Position numbers and translations under genes: made by a program. This document shows positions 3,803-30,482 of a stretch of DNA of 37,886 nucleotides, piece by piece. Within the stretch, counting starts at the first letter, position 1; each line of letters opens with the position of its first letter. The notes under the pieces were generated by a model. That model searched no databases. It saw only the letters and a list, made by a program, of their open reading frames with translations, and was not told the origin of the DNA. The DNA is from Deltaproteobacteria bacterium (GTDB lineage Bacteria; Desulfobacterota; Binatia; Binatales; Binataceae). Location of the stretch: positions 1-37,886 of the forward strand of contig PLDK01000031.1 in assembly GCA_003135135.1 (NCBI GenBank), in the 5' to 3' direction.

Positions 3803-4930
3803 TTGGATTTCGGATTCTCTGAAGAACAAGAGATGCTTCGGGATGCGGCCAAGCGCTTTCTGGCCGACAACTGCCCGTCCAAGTTTGTTCGCCAGATGAT
3901 GGCGGATGCGACCGCGCACGACCCCGCCTTCTGGAAAAAGCTGGTCGATCTCGGATGGCCCGGGCTGCTCATCCCGGAGAGTTACGGCGGCCAGGGTGGC
4001 GGTTTCCTCGACATGACGGTGATTGCCGAAGAAGCCGGCAAGGTTCTGGTGCCGGGACCCCTCTTCACCTCCGCGCTGCTCGCGGCGCCGCTGCTTATAG
4101 AAGGCGGCTCGGACGAGCAGAAAAAAAACCTCCTGCCGCGCATGGCGAAGGGCGAATATATCGGCACCGTCGCGATCGCCGAAGCCTCGGGCCGCTTCGA
4201 CGCCGAGGGAGTCCAGCTCAAGGCGACCAAGAGCGGCAAGGAATACACGATCACCGGCGAGAAGTTTTTTGTGCCCGATGCGCACGTGGCCAACGGGATG
4301 GCGGTTGCAGTCCGCACCGGCGGCAGCGGCGAAAAAGGAATCACGATTCTGACCGTTCCCACCACCGCGAAAGGCCTCACGATCACCCAGCTCAAGACGG
4401 TCGATATGACGCGGCGGCTATGCCACGTGAAGTTCGACAATGTGAAAACCTCCGAACTTATCGGCAAGGAAGGCGAAGGATGGCCGATCCTGCGGCGCAC
4501 GCTCGACATCGCAACCGCGGGGCTGGCGGCCGAGATGGTCGGGACGGCGCAGCGGGCGCTCGACATGTCGGTCGAATACGCCAAGACGCGCGTGCAATTC
4601 GGCAAGCCGATCGGATCGTTTCAAGCCGTCAAGCATAAGTGCGTGGACATGATGGTCGCGGTCGAGAACGCGCGCTCGCTGACCTACTACGCGTGCTGGA
4701 CCGTCGATACCAATAGCGCAGAGGCGGCGACTGCGGTGCCGATGGCGAAAGCGTACGCGTCCGACATGGCGAAGAACGTCACGTCGGAGGCGATCCAGGT
4801 GCACGGCGGCATCGGATTCACCTGGGAGCACGACATGCACCTGTATCATCGGCGCGCGCTGGCCGGAGAAGCCAATTTCGGCAACGCCCCGGTGCATCGC
4901 GAGACCGTAGCGAAGTCCCTGCTGGGCTGA
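3803..4930 (+). CDS. Acyl-CoA dehydrogenase lacking the canonical catalytic Glu
   Basis: A 375-residue FAD-dependent acyl-CoA dehydrogenase fold: N-terminal helical domain, beta domain around residues 120-215 and C-terminal helical domain with RVQFGKPIGSFQAVKH and VHGGIGFTWEHDMHLYHRR. The usual C-terminal YEGT motif carrying the catalytic base (Glu376 in MCAD) is replaced: ungapped alignment by eye puts F359 at that position (ANFGN). This resembles non-catalytic-type subunits of heteromeric dehydrogenases such as the FadE/ChsE pairs of steroid-degrading actinobacteria, though no partner gene is adjacent. The start is a TTG at 3803 behind a good GGAGG (about 3790-3794). It ends 20 bp before a strong terminator and is apparently monocistronic. 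Confidence 0.9.
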   Translation: MDFGFSEEQEMLRDAAKRFLADNCPSKFVRQMMADATAHDPAFWKKLVDLGWPGLLIPESYGGQGGGFLDMTVIAEEAGKVLVPGPLFTSALLAAPLLIEGGSDEQKKNLLPRMAKGEYIGTVAIAEASGRFDAEGVQLKATKSGKEYTITGEKFFVPDAHVANGMAVAVRTGGSGEKGITILTVPTTAKGLTITQLKTVDMTRRLCHVKFDNVKTSELIGKEGEGWPILRRTLDIATAGLAAEMVGTAQRALDMSVEYAKTRVQFGKPIGSFQAVKHKCVDMMVAVENARSLTYYACWTVDTNSAEAATAVPMAKAYASDMAKNVTSEAIQVHGGIGFTWEHDMHLYHRRALAGEANFGNAPVHRETVAKSLLG

Positions 4931-4950
4931 TCGAAGCGAACCGAACACCA

Positions 4951-4986
4951 GAAGAGCCGCGAGACTGAACGCGGCTCTTCCGTTTT
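4951..4986 (+). terminator. Intrinsic terminator
   Basis: A perfect 11-bp stem (4951-4961 with 4970-4980, GAAGAGCCGCG/CGCGGCTCTTC), 8-nt loop and a following CGTTTT. It closes the acyl-CoA dehydrogenase transcript and insulates the DUF5131-TcmP unit. Confidence 0.9.
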
Positions 4987-5004
4987 GAAGAGGCAACACG
5001 CGGG

Positions 5005-5033
5005 TTGACGCTGACCAAGTTTCGCTTTATATT
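5005..5033 (+). promoter_or_regulatory. Sigma70-like promoter of the DUF5131-TcmP unit
   Basis: TTGACG (5005-5010), 17-bp spacer, TATATT (5028-5033). The predicted start near 5040 leaves an ~18-nt leader that holds GGAGG (5046-5050), 7 nt before the GTG start at 5058. It is a near-consensus housekeeping promoter, which fits a constitutively expressed stand-alone module. Confidence 0.75.
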
Positions 5034-5057
5034 CGCCTATAAGCCGGAGGTCATCTC

Positions 5058-5819
5058 GTGAGTGATCGCAGTGCGATCGAGTGGACTGATGCCACGTGGA
5101 ACCCGGTGCGCGGCTGTACCAAGATCAGTCCAGGCTGCAAGCACTGCTACGCGGAAAGATTTGCCGAACGATTCCGCGGCGTACCCGGCCATCCATTCGA
5201 ACAGGGCTTCGACATCCGGCTCGTGCCCGAGAAGCTGGAGCAACCACTTCGATGGCGCTCATCTCGCCGGATCTTTGTAAATTCAATGAGCGATTTGTTC
5301 CATGACCGCGTGCCGACGGAATACATATCTCGGGTCGGCCGCGTCATGCAGGGCGCCGGGTGGCATACGTTTCAAGTTCTCACGAAACGCCACGATCGAC
5401 TGCGATCGTTGTTGAATGGCGAACTCGATTGGATGGGTTCGCTATCGAATGTTTGGTGGGGCGTGAGCGTAGAAAACCGAGAGCACGGCCTGCCGAGGAT
5501 CGACTCGCTGCGATCAACGAACGCTCGTGTCCGTTTCTTGTCCATTGAGCCGCTCCTGGAAAATTTAGGCAAGATCAATCTGTCGGGAATTGATTGGGTG
5601 ATCGTCGGCGGCGAAAGCGGCCCCCATTTCCGAACGATGGCTGCTGCTTGGGCTGAGGGAATACGAGATCAATGTCTCGAGGCACGAGTACCATTCTTCT
5701 TTAAGCAATGGGGGGGGCGTAGTCCTAAACAACTTGGTCGTATGCTAGACAGCCGTGAATGGAACGGAATGCCGGTACCTTCAATCTCCAATCCGGCCGC
5801 GTCCTACGCCGCCCCGTGA
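5058..5819 (+). CDS. DUF5131 / phage Gp37-Gp68 family three-Cys protein
   Basis: A 253-residue member of the DUF5131 family (PF07505, also annotated phage Gp37/Gp68). The N-terminus carries the family's three-cysteine motif NPVRGCTKISPGCKHCYAE (C20, C27, C30; CX6CX2C), which looks like a variant radical-SAM iron-sulphur site. Other conserved blocks: WGVSVEN, FLSIEPLL, DWVIVGGESG and PFFFKQWGG. The gene uses a GTG start with GGAGG 7 nt upstream and is followed by the TcmP gene through a 4-nt GTGA overlap, so the two are almost certainly translationally coupled. The family is known to pair with TcmP and to occur in phages and islands; its reaction is not established. Base composition is visibly less GC-rich than the flanks, suggesting acquisition. 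Confidence 0.92.
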   Translation: MSDRSAIEWTDATWNPVRGCTKISPGCKHCYAERFAERFRGVPGHPFEQGFDIRLVPEKLEQPLRWRSSRRIFVNSMSDLFHDRVPTEYISRVGRVMQGAGWHTFQVLTKRHDRLRSLLNGELDWMGSLSNVWWGVSVENREHGLPRIDSLRSTNARVRFLSIEPLLENLGKINLSGIDWVIVGGESGPHFRTMAAAWAEGIRDQCLEARVPFFFKQWGGRSPKQLGRMLDSREWNGMPVPSISNPAASYAAP

Positions 5820-6664
5820 AACTTCTCGGAAGCGATGGACTGCCGGCGCGTCGCGCACGGATTTGGACTCGCGAGAAACTCAGATACCTGCAGAAATACG
5901 CGCAAGCGTTTATGACGGCGATGGCGCCGAAGCGGTCGCAGGGAAAGTGGGAGCATCTGGACTATATCGATCTGCTATCCGGCCCGGGGCTCAGCATTGT
6001 TCGCGAGACGAAAGAAGAATTCGATGGCTCGCCGCTAATTGCTTTGAAGATTAAACCAGCCTTTGATCATCTTTACTTCGCGGATCTGAATGCTAAAAAC
6101 ATAACTGCTCTAAAGAGTAGGGTCTCCGCCAAAGATGCTGATCGAGTGACGTTCAGCGCAGGTGACTGCAACATCGTGGTCGATGAGGTCTTGAAACAAA
6201 TATCGAGTCGCACCCTCGGGCTCGCATTCATTGATCCCGAGGGCTTCGAAGTCGATTTTGAGACCTTGACTAAATTAGCCAAAAAGAGAATCGACCTACT
6301 CTATCTCTTCGCGAGCGGAATCGGAGTTCGACGCAACTTGAAAAATGCACTCTCTGTTGCGAATAGCCGTTTGGATAAGTGGTGGGGAGGAAAAGATTGG
6401 CGCGATCTCCCGGCGGCGAGATGGGCCGCAGGCAAATTTTCCGAGGAACCGAGCGAGAAGGTATTACAATCGTTCGTGTCAGCGTTTCGGAAAAAGGTCG
6501 CCAGCGCGGGATTTCAATTTCAGGATGAAGAGGCTCTACCGTTCACTAATACGAAAAACGCACAAATATACCACCTGCTGTTCTTTTCTCACGATCAGGC
6601 CGGGTTGACGATTTGGAACAACATAAAGAAGATCGCTCCGGGCGGCCAAAGAACGCTTCTCTGA
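5816..6664 (+). CDS. tcmP: Three-Cys-motif partner protein TcmP
   Basis: A 282-residue protein from the GTG at 5816, chosen because GTGA overlaps the upstream stop; an ATG at 5759 in the same frame would add 19 residues inside the DUF5131 gene and has no visible ribosome-binding site. Near the N-terminus comes a W-T-R-E-K-L..L-Q-K-Y segment, then DYIDLLSGPG, which resembles the (F/L)AGPG motif of TcmP and the glycine-rich loop of SAM methyltransferases. The order continues with GSPLIAL, FADLN (acidic, ribose-binding type) and LAFIDPEGFEV (a DPxG motif at the place of DPPY-like catalytic motifs). A methyltransferase-like activity coupled to the DUF5131 protein is inference from these motifs. 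The gene ends 20 bp before the convergent transporter; a 12-bp palindrome (6681-6692) lies between. Confidence 0.85.
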   Translation: MKLLGSDGLPARRARIWTREKLRYLQKYAQAFMTAMAPKRSQGKWEHLDYIDLLSGPGLSIVRETKEEFDGSPLIALKIKPAFDHLYFADLNAKNITALKSRVSAKDADRVTFSAGDCNIVVDEVLKQISSRTLGLAFIDPEGFEVDFETLTKLAKKRIDLLYLFASGIGVRRNLKNALSVANSRLDKWWGGKDWRDLPAARWAAGKFSEEPSEKVLQSFVSAFRKKVASAGFQFQDEEALPFTNTKNAQIYHLLFFSHDQAGLTIWNNIKKIAPGGQRTLL

Positions 6665-6684
6665 TCGATCGAAAGAACACCCGC

Positions 6685-8067
6685 CTAGGCGGTGGACTTT
6701 GCTTTTTCTTCTTCTTCGGCGGCGGCGGCGTTGCGCGCGGCGAGCCGATCGCGCATCGCGCGATGGCTCTCGCGGGTGATTGGATAGCGCGAGAAAACCA
6801 GCGCACTGAGCAAGTAGAGCGACGCGGGTCCGAGCGCAAAGAGCGCGCGCAGATTCTGCCCCGCTTGCTCCGTGATCCCGCCAACGCCGGGCTTGTAACC
6901 GACCCAGGACAGGACCGGGCCGACCAGCAGCAGCGAAACCGCGAGCGCCATCTTTATCGACATCGAGGTGATTCCGCCGTAGGCGCCCTCCTGGCGCTGG
7001 CCGGTACGCTCCTGGTCCCATTCGATCACGTCCGCCGACGCCGAAATTTGCGTGACCCAAATCCCGATGGCCGAGAATCCGCTGAACGCCATCAAAAAAT
7101 ATAGCGCCCAAGTGCTTTGCCGGGTCAGCAGCATCAACAGCAGCGAGCCGATCGCGTTGCAGATCATCGCGACCACAAAGGCCGGCTTCTTTTCGAACCT
7201 GACCGTGATCCTGAACCAGAACGGATATGAGACCGCCGATCCGACGAAGTACGCCATCAACCATCGCGCCGCCGCGTCCTCGTCGTGATACCAGTACTTG
7301 GCCAGGAAGCGCATCAGGACGGTCGGAATGTTGATGGCCATCACGGCCAGCGTGGTGGCGATCAGCAGAATGACAAACGGCCGATTGCCTGCGACCGATT
7401 TGAGCGACGCGAACAGCCTGGAACGCTCGCGCGTGGAAAATTCGGCGCGTTCGCGAAGACCCGCGTACGCGAGCATCGCACCGCCGGCGACCACCAGACC
7501 GCAGATCGCGCCGGTGACTTTGAAATCAGTGCCGCGCGCGAACAGGTACGAAGCAGCAAATGGCAACAACGCTCCGCTGATGTCGCCGACCGTGCCCAAC
7601 AGCTGGCGGAAGGTGGAGAGCTTGGTGCGTTCGTCGTAGTCGAGCGTGAGTTCCGGCATCAGCGCGCCGTACGCGGTTTCAAAGAACTTCCGCGACGTGA
7701 GCATCAGGAAGTAGAAACCGATAAACCACGCAAACAGCCCCGCGCCCCGCAGCTGCGGCGGCGACAGCAGCAGGTAGTAGCAGACCGCCATCGGAATTGA
7801 CGCGATAAAAAACGGCCGGCGCCGTCCCGACTTGAAGCGCGCGCGATCGGATATATTGCCAACCAACGGGTCGGTCAGCGCGTCGATCACGAGCGCCAGG
7901 AAGAATGCAAGCCCGGCCAGCGATGGAGAGAGCCCATTGCGATCGGTATAGAAATAGAGCAGGTGAAGCCCGAGCAGGGTCGCGCACAGGTTGAGGCCGG
8001 TCTGCGCCTGCGCGTAGATTAACAGGGGACGAAGGCCAATCTTTTCGCTCAAATCCCGGTTTGCCAC
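6685..8067 (-). CDS. GPH-family (MelB-like) sugar-cation symporter
   Basis: A 460-residue, 12-helix inner-membrane transporter of the glycoside-pentoside-hexuronide:cation symporter family (MFS_2). The diagnostic stretch is DALTDPLVGNISDRARFKSGRRRPF (about residues 60-85, given here only as the family signature DP.VG..SDR.....GRRRPF), matching the cation-site aspartates of MelB and the cytoplasmic loop 2-3. The C-terminus is a charged tail rich in Glu and Lys. Substrate is unknown; no glycosidase is adjacent. The start ATG is 75 bp from the divergent lipoprotein gene. Confidence 0.87.
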   Translation of the reverse strand: MANRDLSEKIGLRPLLIYAQAQTGLNLCATLLGLHLLYFYTDRNGLSPSLAGLAFFLALVIDALTDPLVGNISDRARFKSGRRRPFFIASIPMAVCYYLLLSPPQLRGAGLFAWFIGFYFLMLTSRKFFETAYGALMPELTLDYDERTKLSTFRQLLGTVGDISGALLPFAASYLFARGTDFKVTGAICGLVVAGGAMLAYAGLRERAEFSTRERSRLFASLKSVAGNRPFVILLIATTLAVMAINIPTVLMRFLAKYWYHDEDAAARWLMAYFVGSAVSYPFWFRITVRFEKKPAFVVAMICNAIGSLLLMLLTRQSTWALYFLMAFSGFSAIGIWVTQISASADVIEWDQERTGQRQEGAYGGITSMSIKMALAVSLLLVGPVLSWVGYKPGVGGITEQAGQNLRALFALGPASLYLLSALVFSRYPITRESHRAMRDRLAARNAAAAEEEEKAKSTA

Positions 8068-24649: not shown

Positions 24650-24726
24650 GGCGGGGTGGAGCAGTCTGGTAGCTCGCCGGGCTCATAACCCGGAGGTCGA
24701 AGGTTCAAATCCTTCCCCCGCAACCA
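24650..24726 (+). tRNA. Initiator tRNA-fMet (CAT)
   Basis: A 77-nt tRNA with encoded CCA (24724-24726). Anticodon CAT at 24684-24686. Initiator features are all present: three consecutive G:C pairs next to the anticodon loop (CCGGG/CCCGG), A11:T24 in the D stem (GAGC/GCTC), and a non-pairing 1:72 position. The 1:72 mismatch is G:A here rather than the common C:A. The acceptor arm (positions 2-7 with 66-71), T arm and D arm all pair perfectly. It is a single copy in this window and borders an accessory patch. Confidence 0.97.
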
Positions 24727-24769
24727 TTCGACCCGGTCGGACATCAGACTTTGAAATTTTAATCGCGCG

Positions 24770-25375
24770 ATGAAATCATCAGAACAGAAGGCGCAAAAGG
24801 CATTCGAGCTTCGTGATTCGCGCGATATGCTCAAGAAATCGCATTCGTAATTGAACAACCTGTTCTGCCGCCAGCGTTATGACGTTGAGGCGTGCCGGTA
24901 TCACGCATTTAATTGTGCCGTCACCGCATGGCACGTGACGAACTGGTTATGGTGGGACATCACTCCCGATGTAAAGGCCAGACTAGAGGAGAAGATTCAA
25001 AGGAAGCTGAATCGGTTTGAGAAATTTCAAGACTATGTTGGTGAGGATTGCCCGTCGCTCAACCTGTGCCGTCAGATCGCGAACGGCTCGAAGCATTGCC
25101 TACTGATGCATAACCCCGACCCGGCGATTTCGGCAAGCATTAGCAAAGGCGAAGGATACAACTACGGCAATCCGATCATCAAGGAAGGCGACACCCCGCA
25201 TCTGGCGGACAAGGTATTTTTCGCTGGATTATTTTGGTTTCAGGCATTTCTCCGCGAATGGAATATTTTCCCTGAGGAGCCGTTCGCGCCGTCCGGTGAT
25301 GGGCCTAACGGCCGAGATCGGTCAAAACAAATTCGTACGCCCAAGATAGTTGCCCGGTCTTATCCTCACTTATAG
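24770..25375 (+). pseudogene. Hypothetical gene interrupted by an in-frame stop
   Basis: From ATG 24770 the frame reads 26 codons (starting MKSSEQKAQKAFELRD), meets TAA at 24848-24850 and continues in the same frame for another 174 codons to the stop at 25375. The downstream part is clearly coding (HAFNCAVTAWHVTNWLW, LCRQIANGSKH), and the upstream part fits as its N-terminus. Either a nonsense mutation has split the gene, or the second part initiates at the TTG right after the stop (no Shine-Dalgarno). The composition is lower in GC than its neighbours. It sits 43 bp downstream of tRNA-fMet. The family is not one I can name; the AFN..VTAWH.x.W pattern resembles uncharacterised accessory proteins. 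Confidence 0.6.
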
Positions 25376-25620
25376 GCTATGACGGCACGCGCGCGAAGCC
25401 GGCGGCTTGTTTGGCCGGCAGGCCGCCAACCAGATTGGCGCCGTTTCAGCGAATGTCGGCCTCGGCCAATGCCTGCCCCCGCGACCAATCGAATTTGCAA
25501 TCCAGGGCATGGACATCTTCTGTGACGCGCGCAACGCGAAGCGCACCTCAGATCTGGGCCTCGCCTCAGCCTACTCTATCTGCTACCATTACTCGTACCA
25601 ATGGTAGGAACAATTCGCCG

Positions 25621-25845
25621 ATGAGTGCCGCAAAACTTTCGGTATCGCTTCCTCGCTCACTAGCTGGATTCGTTGAGAACTATCGAAAAAGGCGGGGTTT
25701 GAAGAGCCGATCCCAGGTCTTCGAGGAAGCAGTCATCCTGCTCCGAAGCCGCGAGTTGGAAACTGCTTACCGCCAAGCGAACTCGGAATTCGACAAGGCC
25801 TGGGACACCGCGACTTCAGATGGGCTGTCCGATGAGACGTGGTGA
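25621..25845 (+). CDS. Ribbon-helix-helix antitoxin (MazE-like)
   Basis: A 74-residue protein whose N-terminus (AKLSVSLPRSLAGFVENYRKRRGLKSRSQVFEEAV) is a ribbon-helix-helix DNA-binding domain; the acidic tail would neutralise the toxin. ATG at 25621 with AGGAAC upstream; a longer in-frame reading from 25411 is unsupported. The toxin start overlaps its last codons (14 nt), typical of coupled toxin-antitoxin operons. It should repress its own promoter, which must lie in 25376-25620. Confidence 0.82.
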   Translation: MSAAKLSVSLPRSLAGFVENYRKRRGLKSRSQVFEEAVILLRSRELETAYRQANSEFDKAWDTATSDGLSDETW

Positions 25846-26167
25846 AATCTACTTCGCCGACTTAAGCCCAATTATCGGCACGGAGATAAACAAGCGCCGC
25901 CCGGTGCTCATCGTCAGTAACGAAGCGAATAACCGGGCCTCAAACACGGTGACCGTCCTGCCCATCACTTCCAACGTCAGCAGGATATATCCGTTTGAAA
26001 TTGCACTGTCCCCTAAAGATAGTGGCCTGCCGAAGCCCTCGAAGGGTCAAGCGCAGCAGATCCGAACTATCTCCAAGGAACGAATCCGAGGCGCAGCGTT
26101 GGGCCGTCTCAATGCAACCGTTATGAGCAAAGCTGCAGACGCAATGCGTCTTCACCTTGATCTCTAG
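25832..26167 (+). CDS. MazF/PemK-family endoribonuclease toxin
   Basis: A 111-residue type II toxin. The N-terminus MRRGEIYFADLSPIIGTEINKRRPVLIVSN is the family signature (GEI.W...L.P..G.E..K.RP..V), with conserved R in KRRP and T in PIT.NV; a KGQAQQIRTI segment matches the substrate-binding loop. It would cleave mRNA when freed from the antitoxin. ATG 25832 is preferred over 25820 because of the family start. It overlaps the antitoxin gene by 14 nt. Confidence 0.9.
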   Translation: MRRGEIYFADLSPIIGTEINKRRPVLIVSNEANNRASNTVTVLPITSNVSRIYPFEIALSPKDSGLPKPSKGQAQQIRTISKERIRGAALGRLNATVMSKAADAMRLHLDL

Positions 26168-29654: not shown

Positions 29655-29978
29655 TCATACACGCGGGCATACCGACACCGCCGTCCCCGCACAGACACAG
29701 AAGGAGACAGATACAAGGCTGACACACCCAAGCGAAACAGGCATGTTCATCGCGGAAAACCGGAAACACTGTGCGATAGCGCACAGAGCGGTTGAAATCG
29801 AGGAACGAGAACCTCAGAAGGAGAATTGGCCAGGGTGGGGAGTGGAATCAGGTCAAAGCACATACGCCTAGCCTGATGAAGCTCGTAATAGCCGGAATCG
29901 TCCAGGTCAACTGCAAACCAAATCGCCCGAGTTATGTACAAGCTTTGGGGAAATCGGCTCGAATGGGGAGAAGAAGAT
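29655..29978. other. Non-coding stretch, no gene seen
   Basis: These 324 bp lie between a small ORF and the secreted-protein gene. Short readings exist but none has a plausible start signal or protein-like composition. A GGAGAAG at 29967-29973 belongs to the gene starting at 29979. Confidence 0.5.
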
Positions 29979-30482
29979 ATGAAACTGTCAAAAATGTTGT
30001 GCGCGTCACTTGTGGCTTTGGCGGCGTTGGCGCTGTCCGCCGATGGCGCGTTTGCTCAGAACAACAACACGTGTTGGGAATTTGTTACTTGGAACGCGGT
30101 GACATGGACTGGGAGTGCCCCAAATTCTCACGGTTGCGCGCCAATCGGTAGCACGATGACGGGAACGACCTGCGCCACCGCGGGCGGAGGGCAGCCAGTC
30201 AGTGGCACCACCATTGAGGTTGCTGCCTCTCAGTGTCATGAGGACACGCGCAAGGCTTTCCAAGCGAGCACATTGTGGGCAACTGCAGCGTTGGCCTGTC
30301 CTAGATTCCCAGGCCAGACGCTCGAAGCGTTGGCAATTGACCGCTTCAAAGAAATCGCGGAGACCCCCCAGCTCTATAATAGAGTGGACGGGTTTAAAGT
30401 TAAGTGCGATCTTACCGGCGTGCCCGTCCCACACACTGAGGCTCCATACACTGGGCTAGTCGGCGATGTGCCACCATATTAA
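29979..30482 (+). CDS. Secreted cysteine-containing protein, unknown function
   Basis: A 167-residue protein with a clear Sec signal peptide (MKLSKMLCASLVALAALALS, cut after AFA before QNN). The mature part has six cysteines (in NTCWEF, HGCAP, TTCATA, SQCHED, LACPRF, VKCDLT), an even number consistent with disulphides in an extracytoplasmic protein. No domain recognised. The ATG at 29979 has GGAGAAG upstream. It ends before a strong terminator at 30548-30576, so it is probably monocistronic. Confidence 0.65.
   Translation: MKLSKMLCASLVALAALALSADGAFAQNNNTCWEFVTWNAVTWTGSAPNSHGCAPIGSTMTGTTCATAGGGQPVSGTTIEVAASQCHEDTRKAFQASTLWATAALACPRFPGQTLEALAIDRFKEIAETPQLYNRVDGFKVKCDLTGVPVPHTEAPYTGLVGDVPPY

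Follow-up and report, generated by a model that had tools for sequence, protein, structure and literature searches.

A stretch of 37,886 nucleotides from a Deltaproteobacteria bacterium of the family Binataceae (GCA_003135135.1, contig PLDK01000031.1, positions 1-37,886; the whole stretch is called the window in this work) raises the question of what is done by two adjacent genes that lie between an acyl-CoA dehydrogenase gene on the upstream side and a major facilitator superfamily (MFS) gene. The first encodes a DUF5131 protein and the second a TcmP protein. We propose that the DUF5131-TcmP pair is a horizontally acquired operon for nucleic acid modification that is used in host-virus conflict, and give this combined statement a probability of about 0.5. 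Of its parts, the enzyme classes of the two proteins are predicted with considerable confidence, and a conflict or defence role of the pair is rated slightly better than even.

An earlier note on this DNA, made from the sequence alone, had named the two genes, and both were confirmed by profile matches. The DUF5131 protein scored 324.2 bits against PF07505 (cut-off 28.9, E 6.7e-97) and also matched the phage family phrog_2045 (E 1.5e-94). TcmP scored 163.6 bits against the NCBIfam model TIGR04474, 'three-Cys-motif partner' (cut-off 53), and had no Pfam match at E 1. Both proteins are well above the cut-offs of their families; the names of the models give neither a fold nor a function. The same note had described the pair as known to co-occur and as lacking an established function. 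The co-occurrence holds, as shown below, but the pair is not wholly unclassified. In PADLOC-DB 2.0.0 the DUF5131 protein matches PDC-M41B (E 3.5e-101) and PDC-M30B, and TcmP matches PDC-M41A (E 1.5e-32). In these models A is TcmP-like and B is DUF5131, and the same pair is found adjacent and co-oriented here, membership being judged by neighbouring genes that fit the A and B gene models and not by the PADLOC system rules. A PDC is a candidate label only and not a validated system; according to the accessible part of one paper, validation is pending for most PDCs, and their source is cited there as Payne et al. 2024 (PMC12988326). The pair is not a new system, because PADLOC already lists PDC-M41/M30. 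It adds one more member to this phage-defence candidate, and what is new here are the fold assignments and the partner rules. Searches that covered papers other than preprints and most subscription articles yielded no fold assignment, partner swap or fusion evidence for the pair and no paper naming DUF5131 or PDC-M41; the accessible part of PMC10250203 holds nothing on the pair.

Predicted folds of the two proteins

The DUF5131 protein was modelled with AlphaFold2 (AF2) from an alignment of the window protein with 45 of 79 homologues from the fetched loci, and the model reached a predicted local distance difference test score (pLDDT) of 87.6. It has the partial TIM-barrel fold of radical S-adenosylmethionine (SAM) enzymes. 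The six best Foldseek matches and the six best VIA matches were all structures of spore photoproduct lyase, a radical-SAM enzyme of DNA repair, with a Z score of 13.2 and a root-mean-square deviation (rmsd) of 3.0 over 195 aligned positions within residues 1-217. Lower matches were SuiB (Z 11.8), viperin-like enzymes and RlmN (Z 11.1). As in spore photoproduct lyase, the cysteine triad stands near the N-terminus, and C20, C27 and C30 were kept in 42/42 and 46/46 aligned homologues in two alignments. The best reading of the model is that DUF5131 is a radical-SAM protein whose three cysteines would bind a [4Fe-4S] cluster and support catalysis.

The TcmP model, built by AF2 from the window protein and 50 of 78 homologues, had a pLDDT of 92.3. 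Its best structural match was RlmJ (Foldseek E 2e-7; Z 17.2, rmsd 3.0, 209 aligned), which places TcmP in the RlmJ fold, and the next fold family was Trm1 (Z 15.1). Moreover, a profile of 51 TcmP sequences matched RlmJ (DUF519) chains at E 3.1e-5, and the alignment pairs their SAM-binding glycine motifs and the Asp-Pro of motif IV, while PDB sequence searches with the single DUF5131 and TcmP proteins gave chance matches only. K21 is invariant in the 51 sequences, and D52, G56 and D140 are conserved in ≥90%. By PDB entry titles, RlmJ is the N6-methyltransferase of 23S rRNA A2030. Judging from the model, TcmP is probably an RlmJ-like class I SAM-dependent methyltransferase with N6-adenine specificity.

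Viperins are radical-SAM enzymes making nucleotide analogues, and viperin-like enzymes are the third fold family of DUF5131 (Z 11.4). By analogy, DUF5131 could make an antiviral small molecule, such as a modified nucleotide, and TcmP could methylate the product. Viperins are listed as validated antiviral systems in the accessible part of PMC12988326. On the other hand, spore photoproduct lyase scores 1.8 Z higher, and TcmP is closest to methyltransferases of large RNA (RlmJ, Trm1) and not to small-molecule ones, so this explanation is very improbable.

Partners and neighbourhoods of the pair

The partner rule was read from 51 TcmP loci above the cut-off outside the window's genome, from 50 genomes. 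In 42 of them a DUF5131-profile gene is adjacent or fused to TcmP (37 with TcmP first, three with DUF5131 first, two fused). Five others have an adjacent protein of 357-385 aa with the motif C-x3-C-x2-C[YF], and in one (L117) TcmP is fused to such a protein. A DUF5131 or other three-cysteine protein thus accompanies TcmP in 48/51 loci, and the other three are limited by their contigs: L090 has a contig end at a distance of 457 bp, L121 is cut by the edge of its contig, and L101 has a truncated TcmP on a 3.4-kb contig. Among the 42 partners, those of L107, L120 and L126 are distant relatives, and the canonical C-x3-C-x2-C is found in L107 and L126 as well as in other TcmP partners such as L084 and L142. 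Furthermore, the annotations of two haloarchaeal plasmids and one Nostoc plasmid name the TcmP partner a radical SAM protein. Unlike RlmJ, TcmP has as its companion a radical-SAM-type protein with three cysteines, and DUF5131 is the C-x6-C-x2-C variant of this companion.

The scan of named genomes with the window's DUF5131 gave at least 584 relatives, of which the best 80 were used. TcmP stands alongside in 66 of these (44 with DUF5131 first, 20 with TcmP first, two in opposite orientation) and is missing in 14, four of them near a contig end. By contrast, among the matches listed for viral contigs, 23 of 80 DUF5131 loci have TcmP and 57 lack it (six near a contig end). DUF5131 genes with no TcmP beside them are also found, most of all in phages. 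At E 1e-10 DUF5131 was found in 387 plasmid records (72,556 searched) and 159 phage records (50,697 searched), and Burkholderia is the commonest genus among the plasmids (82/387).

Some loci depart from the two-gene form. Six proteobacterial plasmids (L136, L137, L139, L140, L306, L308) carry one DUF5131 gene and two TcmP genes, of 258-308 aa and 415-427 aa, which suggests a three-gene version of the system. In L082 (8929-9804) the TcmP frame is split by one in-frame TAG and the adjoining DUF5131 gene is open throughout; this may be a decaying copy or an assembly error. Burkholderia glumae p79s2p (L347, 723-1778) holds a second gene annotated 'phage Gp37/Gp68', of the DUF5131 type, among F-type conjugation genes (traK, traE, traL, trbI-like), and a conjugation-linked form of DUF5131 may exist.

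A tight two-gene overlap, the spread on plasmids and temperate phages, and presence or absence at one junction would also suit a selfish addiction or abortive pair, in which one enzyme would damage an essential nucleic acid that its partner shields. However, no nuclease or toxin domain was found in either protein by Pfam and fold searches, and DUF5131 lacks TcmP in most of the viral loci above. Joint action is favoured over antagonism because both halves are fused in L114, L116 and L117. An addiction pair is therefore quite improbable.

Conflict between hosts and mobile elements is suggested by the plasmid contexts. Of the 17 plasmid records with TcmP, 13 were viewed, and a gene was taken as a defence gene on its product name, judged by eye. 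The test asked for a defence gene within 8 kb of 11 loci, with stretches ~50-70 kb away on the same plasmids as controls; pSymA (without annotation) and Deinococcus (plasmid too small) had no control and stand outside the 11. Defence genes were found near 7/11 TcmP loci and in 2/11 controls (one-sided Fisher p 0.040), but the test is small, and the two-sided p is 0.08 and that of the paired sign test (6 to 1) is 0.06. The first eight plasmids with controls had given 7/8 and 1/8 (p 0.005), and the Burkholderia, Natronosalvus and Halocatena records were added later. The seven loci are those of Paraburkholderia (DUF262 gene), Rhizobium rhizogenes (DUF262 gene and type ISP enzyme), Acidovorax (DNA methyltransferase-helicase-GIY-YIG group), Nocardioides (McrC with N-6 methylase), Nostoc (BREX genes), Leisingera (two Abi genes) and Agrobacterium (DUF1837 with a helicase, which we take to be Hachiman-like). 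No counted defence gene was present in the stretches viewed of Burkholderia, Acetobacter, Natronosalvus and Halocatena, and the two defence-like controls hold a reverse transcriptase (Leisingera) and cas6 at the stretch edge (Natronosalvus). Toxin-antitoxin genes, lone DNA methyltransferases and lone helicases were not counted in either set. Such toxin-antitoxin genes occur in the Halocatena test stretch and in the Nostoc, Acetobacter and Natronosalvus controls, and lone DNA methyltransferases in Deinococcus and at the edge of the Acetobacter stretch, the latter giving 8/11 (p 0.015) if counted.

Several single records point the same way or add further contexts. For S. meliloti, a table arranged by putative transcription unit (PMC12445080) gives the tcmP gene SMa2243 one row below the phage-defence gene hna (SMa2245), the grouping of these two genes not being visible in the accessible text. 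The pSymA stretch has two TcmP genes, either of which may be SMa2243, and one DUF5131 gene. The pair of Leptospira biflexa p74 adjoins a type ISP restriction enzyme, pCAR1 has an adjacent DUF5131-TcmP pair after an integrase, and TcmP of the temperate phage BaxterFox lies beside the immunity repressor. Two actinobacterial phages have a DNA methylase gene upstream of a DUF5131 gene that lacks TcmP, immediately before it in one and separated by a 129-bp open reading frame (ORF) in the other. Where phage DUF5131 lacks TcmP, its annotated neighbours most often have DNA methylase domains: there were 9 matches in 102 adjacent genes and 3 in 102 genes drawn randomly from the 304 that lie farther off in these loci (p 0.067). 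A protein with matches to two families may be counted twice, and the difference is suggestive only.

The neighbourhoods also bear on lesion repair. Here DUF5131 would reverse a photoproduct or base lesion, TcmP would be an auxiliary DNA-binding or methylating subunit, and the pair would travel as an aid to the survival of incoming DNA. This agrees with spore photoproduct lyase as the closest fold, with the error-prone polymerase and imuA genes that adjoin the Burkholderia plasmid copy, and with UvrD-type helicases in the Nocardioides and Rhizobium rhizogenes stretches. Nevertheless, the plasmid stretches viewed hold restriction, BREX and Abi genes more often than such repair genes, and a repair lyase needs no near-obligate methyltransferase partner. 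We consider lesion repair unlikely.

The locus in the window and its descent

The features of the locus are collected in Table 1. The GTGA start/stop overlap that the earlier note had claimed is present in the sequence, and in homologous DUF5131/TcmP pairs an overlap or gap of a few bases is usual. The claimed near-consensus promoter matches at the number of positions given in the table, but the scan found two sites of this grade compared with 1.0 ± 1.0 in shuffles, so that the score alone is not above chance, and it is the position of the putative promoter that argues for it. The strong terminator in front of the pair is a real hairpin. It is, however, assigned to the dehydrogenase and not to the pair, because an equivalent hairpin (-29.9 kcal/mol) follows the same dehydrogenase in a genome of the same genus (G001) that lacks the pair. 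An Rfam search of 4500-7300 gave no match. The claim of a composition different from the flanks was borne out when GC content at third codon positions (GC3) and codon use were compared numerically. The GC content of the DUF5131 and tcmP genes is 0.567 and 0.510; among the 31 window genes tcmP has the lowest GC3 (z -3.2) and DUF5131 the third lowest (z -2.6), and their codon-adaptation z values are -2.45 for DUF5131 and -2.57 for tcmP. A similarly low composition was found in two other window genes, encoding ORFs of 174 and 182 aa.

Table 1. Features of the DUF5131-TcmP locus (window positions)
Feature	Position	Strand	Details
DUF5131 gene	5058..5819	+	253 aa; GTG start; cysteines C20-x6-C27-x2-C30
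tcmP gene	5816..6664	+	282 aa; GTG start at 5816; K21, D52, G56, D140-P141
GTGA overlap (tcmP start / DUF5131 TGA stop)	5816..5819	+	4 bases, from sequence
Promoter-like TTGACG-17-TATATT	5005..5033	+	10/12 consensus match
Ribosome-binding-site-like GGAGG	5046..5050	+	7 bases 5' of DUF5131 GTG start, from sequence
Hairpin, terminator of upstream acyl-CoA dehydrogenase, outside module	4951..4980	+	fold -21.4 kcal/mol, z -4.7
Stretch between flanks aligning to relatives	4934..6682	.	1749 bp; blastn vs L003 (G001), L035 (G005), L007 (G002)

In three of the six other genomes of the genus the same junction is without an insert, the flanks being 90 (G001), 93 (G005) and 173 bp (G002) apart. The junction is readable in four genomes only, since the dehydrogenase and MFS genes of G003 and G004 are on separate contigs. 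In the fourth, G006, the flanks are 1013 bp apart and enclose an unrelated gene on the opposite strand, a secreted-looking ORF of 279 aa (L005, 2721-3560). The dehydrogenase-MFS junction thus seems to take different inserts, because G006 has an unrelated ORF there. A related, equally oriented pair lies beside the same MFS gene in G004 (DUF5131 77% and TcmP 64% identity), preceded by pilus-assembly-like genes (by eye) where the window has the dehydrogenase. It was also observed that G004 carries three different DUF5131-TcmP pairs (L337, L343, L344), whose DUF5131 proteins are 81%, 55% and 64% identical to that of the window by tblastn.

By comparing the window with G004, the synonymous divergence (NG86) is 3.9 for DUF5131 and undefined through saturation for TcmP; it is 0.73 for the MFS gene and 0.57 for the dehydrogenase gene. 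Because of this difference, independent arrival or replacement of the two pairs is favoured, though not strongly, and vertical inheritance from a genus ancestor is disfavoured. In a DUF5131 tree of 83 proteins (quick method, with SH-aLRT support only), the window and G004 proteins share a group of nine with proteins from six Acidobacteriota and one from Myxococcota (starred support 99), and the same-genus G006 protein falls in another group of 15, nine of them Pseudomonadota (support 94, not starred). TcmP above the cut-off was found in 51/395 genomes of the phylum, 8/41 of the family and 3/7 of the genus, and DUF5131 in 4/7 of the genus. The simplest reading of these sequence data is that the pair was probably acquired by horizontal transfer, and an acquired, patchily present pair is upheld by the empty junctions and by the different clades of the window and G006 proteins.

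An independently moving cargo, as the earlier note had put it, was not supported. The insert has only the two genes, with no recombinase or transposase, terminal repeat or target duplication found in it, its borders share no common word of ≥8 bases, direct or inverted, and it does not qualify as an autonomous mobile element; the copy also lies outside a defence island. As for its isolation among ordinary genes, no defence neighbour was found: ten other window proteins gave one PADLOC match, that of an ordinary-looking methyltransferase to the generic model mad2. No phage gene was seen among the neighbours either, by eye only, the phage-family search having covered the pair.

The pair could also be an ordinary modification system for host RNA or DNA, an accessory trait that is passed around and has no role in conflict. 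RlmJ itself modifies 23S rRNA (PDB entry titles), and the window copy, like many chromosomal copies, sits among ordinary genes. However, the patchy occurrence even within one genus (TcmP in 3/7 genomes), the spread over distant phyla and the defence-rich plasmid surroundings speak against it. We regard it as rather unlikely.

Two other regions of the window stand apart from this locus. The region 24750-26150 has a low GC content (~0.55), lies beside tRNA-Met (24650-24726) and includes the 174-aa ORF, for which Pfam gave no match. Five of the six other genomes of the genus lack the DNA of this region, and the sixth matches a 143-bp piece only. It is possibly a small island at the tRNA. The 182-aa ORF (29934-30482) has a stretch resembling a signal peptide, is the least codon-adapted of the 31 window genes and gave no PADLOC match.

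A proposed modification operon in host-virus conflict

We hypothesize that DUF5131, by radical chemistry, and TcmP, by methyl transfer, would act on the same nucleic acid. Both predicted folds use SAM, one being like an RNA-adenine methylating enzyme and the other like a radical DNA repair enzyme, and the models make a nucleic acid, either DNA or RNA, the likeliest common substrate. By placing a modification or reversing a lesion, the pair would influence how infections by phages and other mobile elements end, either protecting self or spoiling the invader, and the operon, the gene overlap and the fusions would keep the two proteins together. Modification is favoured over cutting because the searches above detected no nuclease or toxin domain in either protein. 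In a more specific form, TcmP and DUF5131 would be a two-step hypermodification machine that builds an undescribed modified base, probably on adenine, which blocks or marks invaders, and in phages a DNA methylase may replace TcmP; this version is possible but doubtful. The earlier idea of a defence or nucleic acid modification unit is thus supported by the plasmid neighbours and fits both predicted folds, but not by the position of the window copy.

Besides the small size of the plasmid test, several results weigh against the proposed operon. The Foldseek E value for spore photoproduct lyase is just 3.5e-3. DUF5131 has C-x6-C-x2-C instead of the canonical radical-SAM C-x3-C-x2-C, is 12% identical to spore photoproduct lyase and has no known lesion substrate; its sequence profile matches no PDB chain at E 10 and does not place it in the spore photoproduct lyase family. 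TcmP is 13% identical to RlmJ and has DPEG (140-143) where RlmJ has DPPY, so the DPPY motif is missing, although its Asp-Pro aligns to RlmJ's DPP. DUF5131 can work without TcmP, because TcmP is missing from the 57/80 listed viral loci and is not annotated with the second Burkholderia plasmid gene (L347) beside the conjugation genes. The window copy has no defence neighbour.

The chromosomal flanks must be added to these points. Around the 66 pairs of close relatives they are mixed and largely ordinary; the Pfam tally shows type I and other methylases, AbiEii-like ATPases and many ordinary genes. Five flank genes are carboxyltransferases, which suggests a shared locus in some Acidobacteriota, and some chromosomal copies may thus be settled residents. 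In a PADLOC scan of the flanks (≤2 genes a side, longest-ORF gene calling, genes >1500 aa dropped in both sets), 262 and 76 models were matched for 242 genes round the 66 pairs and 22 for 117 genes in nine control regions. This count is muddied by redundant and generic models, the most frequent being mad2 (5 and 2), and the controls hold an AbiE-like pair; for these reasons it carries no weight in the defence case. Finally, no experiment on the DUF5131-TcmP pair was met in the literature covered.

DUF5131 is widespread in plasmid and phage records, yet its pair with TcmP has only a PADLOC candidate label. The folds predict which residues matter, namely the cluster cysteines 20, 27 and 30 of DUF5131 and the methyltransferase residues 21, 52 and 140 of TcmP. 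What was a protein of unknown function with a partner thereby becomes a question that can be asked precisely, namely on which nucleic acid the modification is made and whether phages are stopped by it. If the proposal is true, a defence chemistry that combines a radical-SAM enzyme with a methyltransferase would be unusual.

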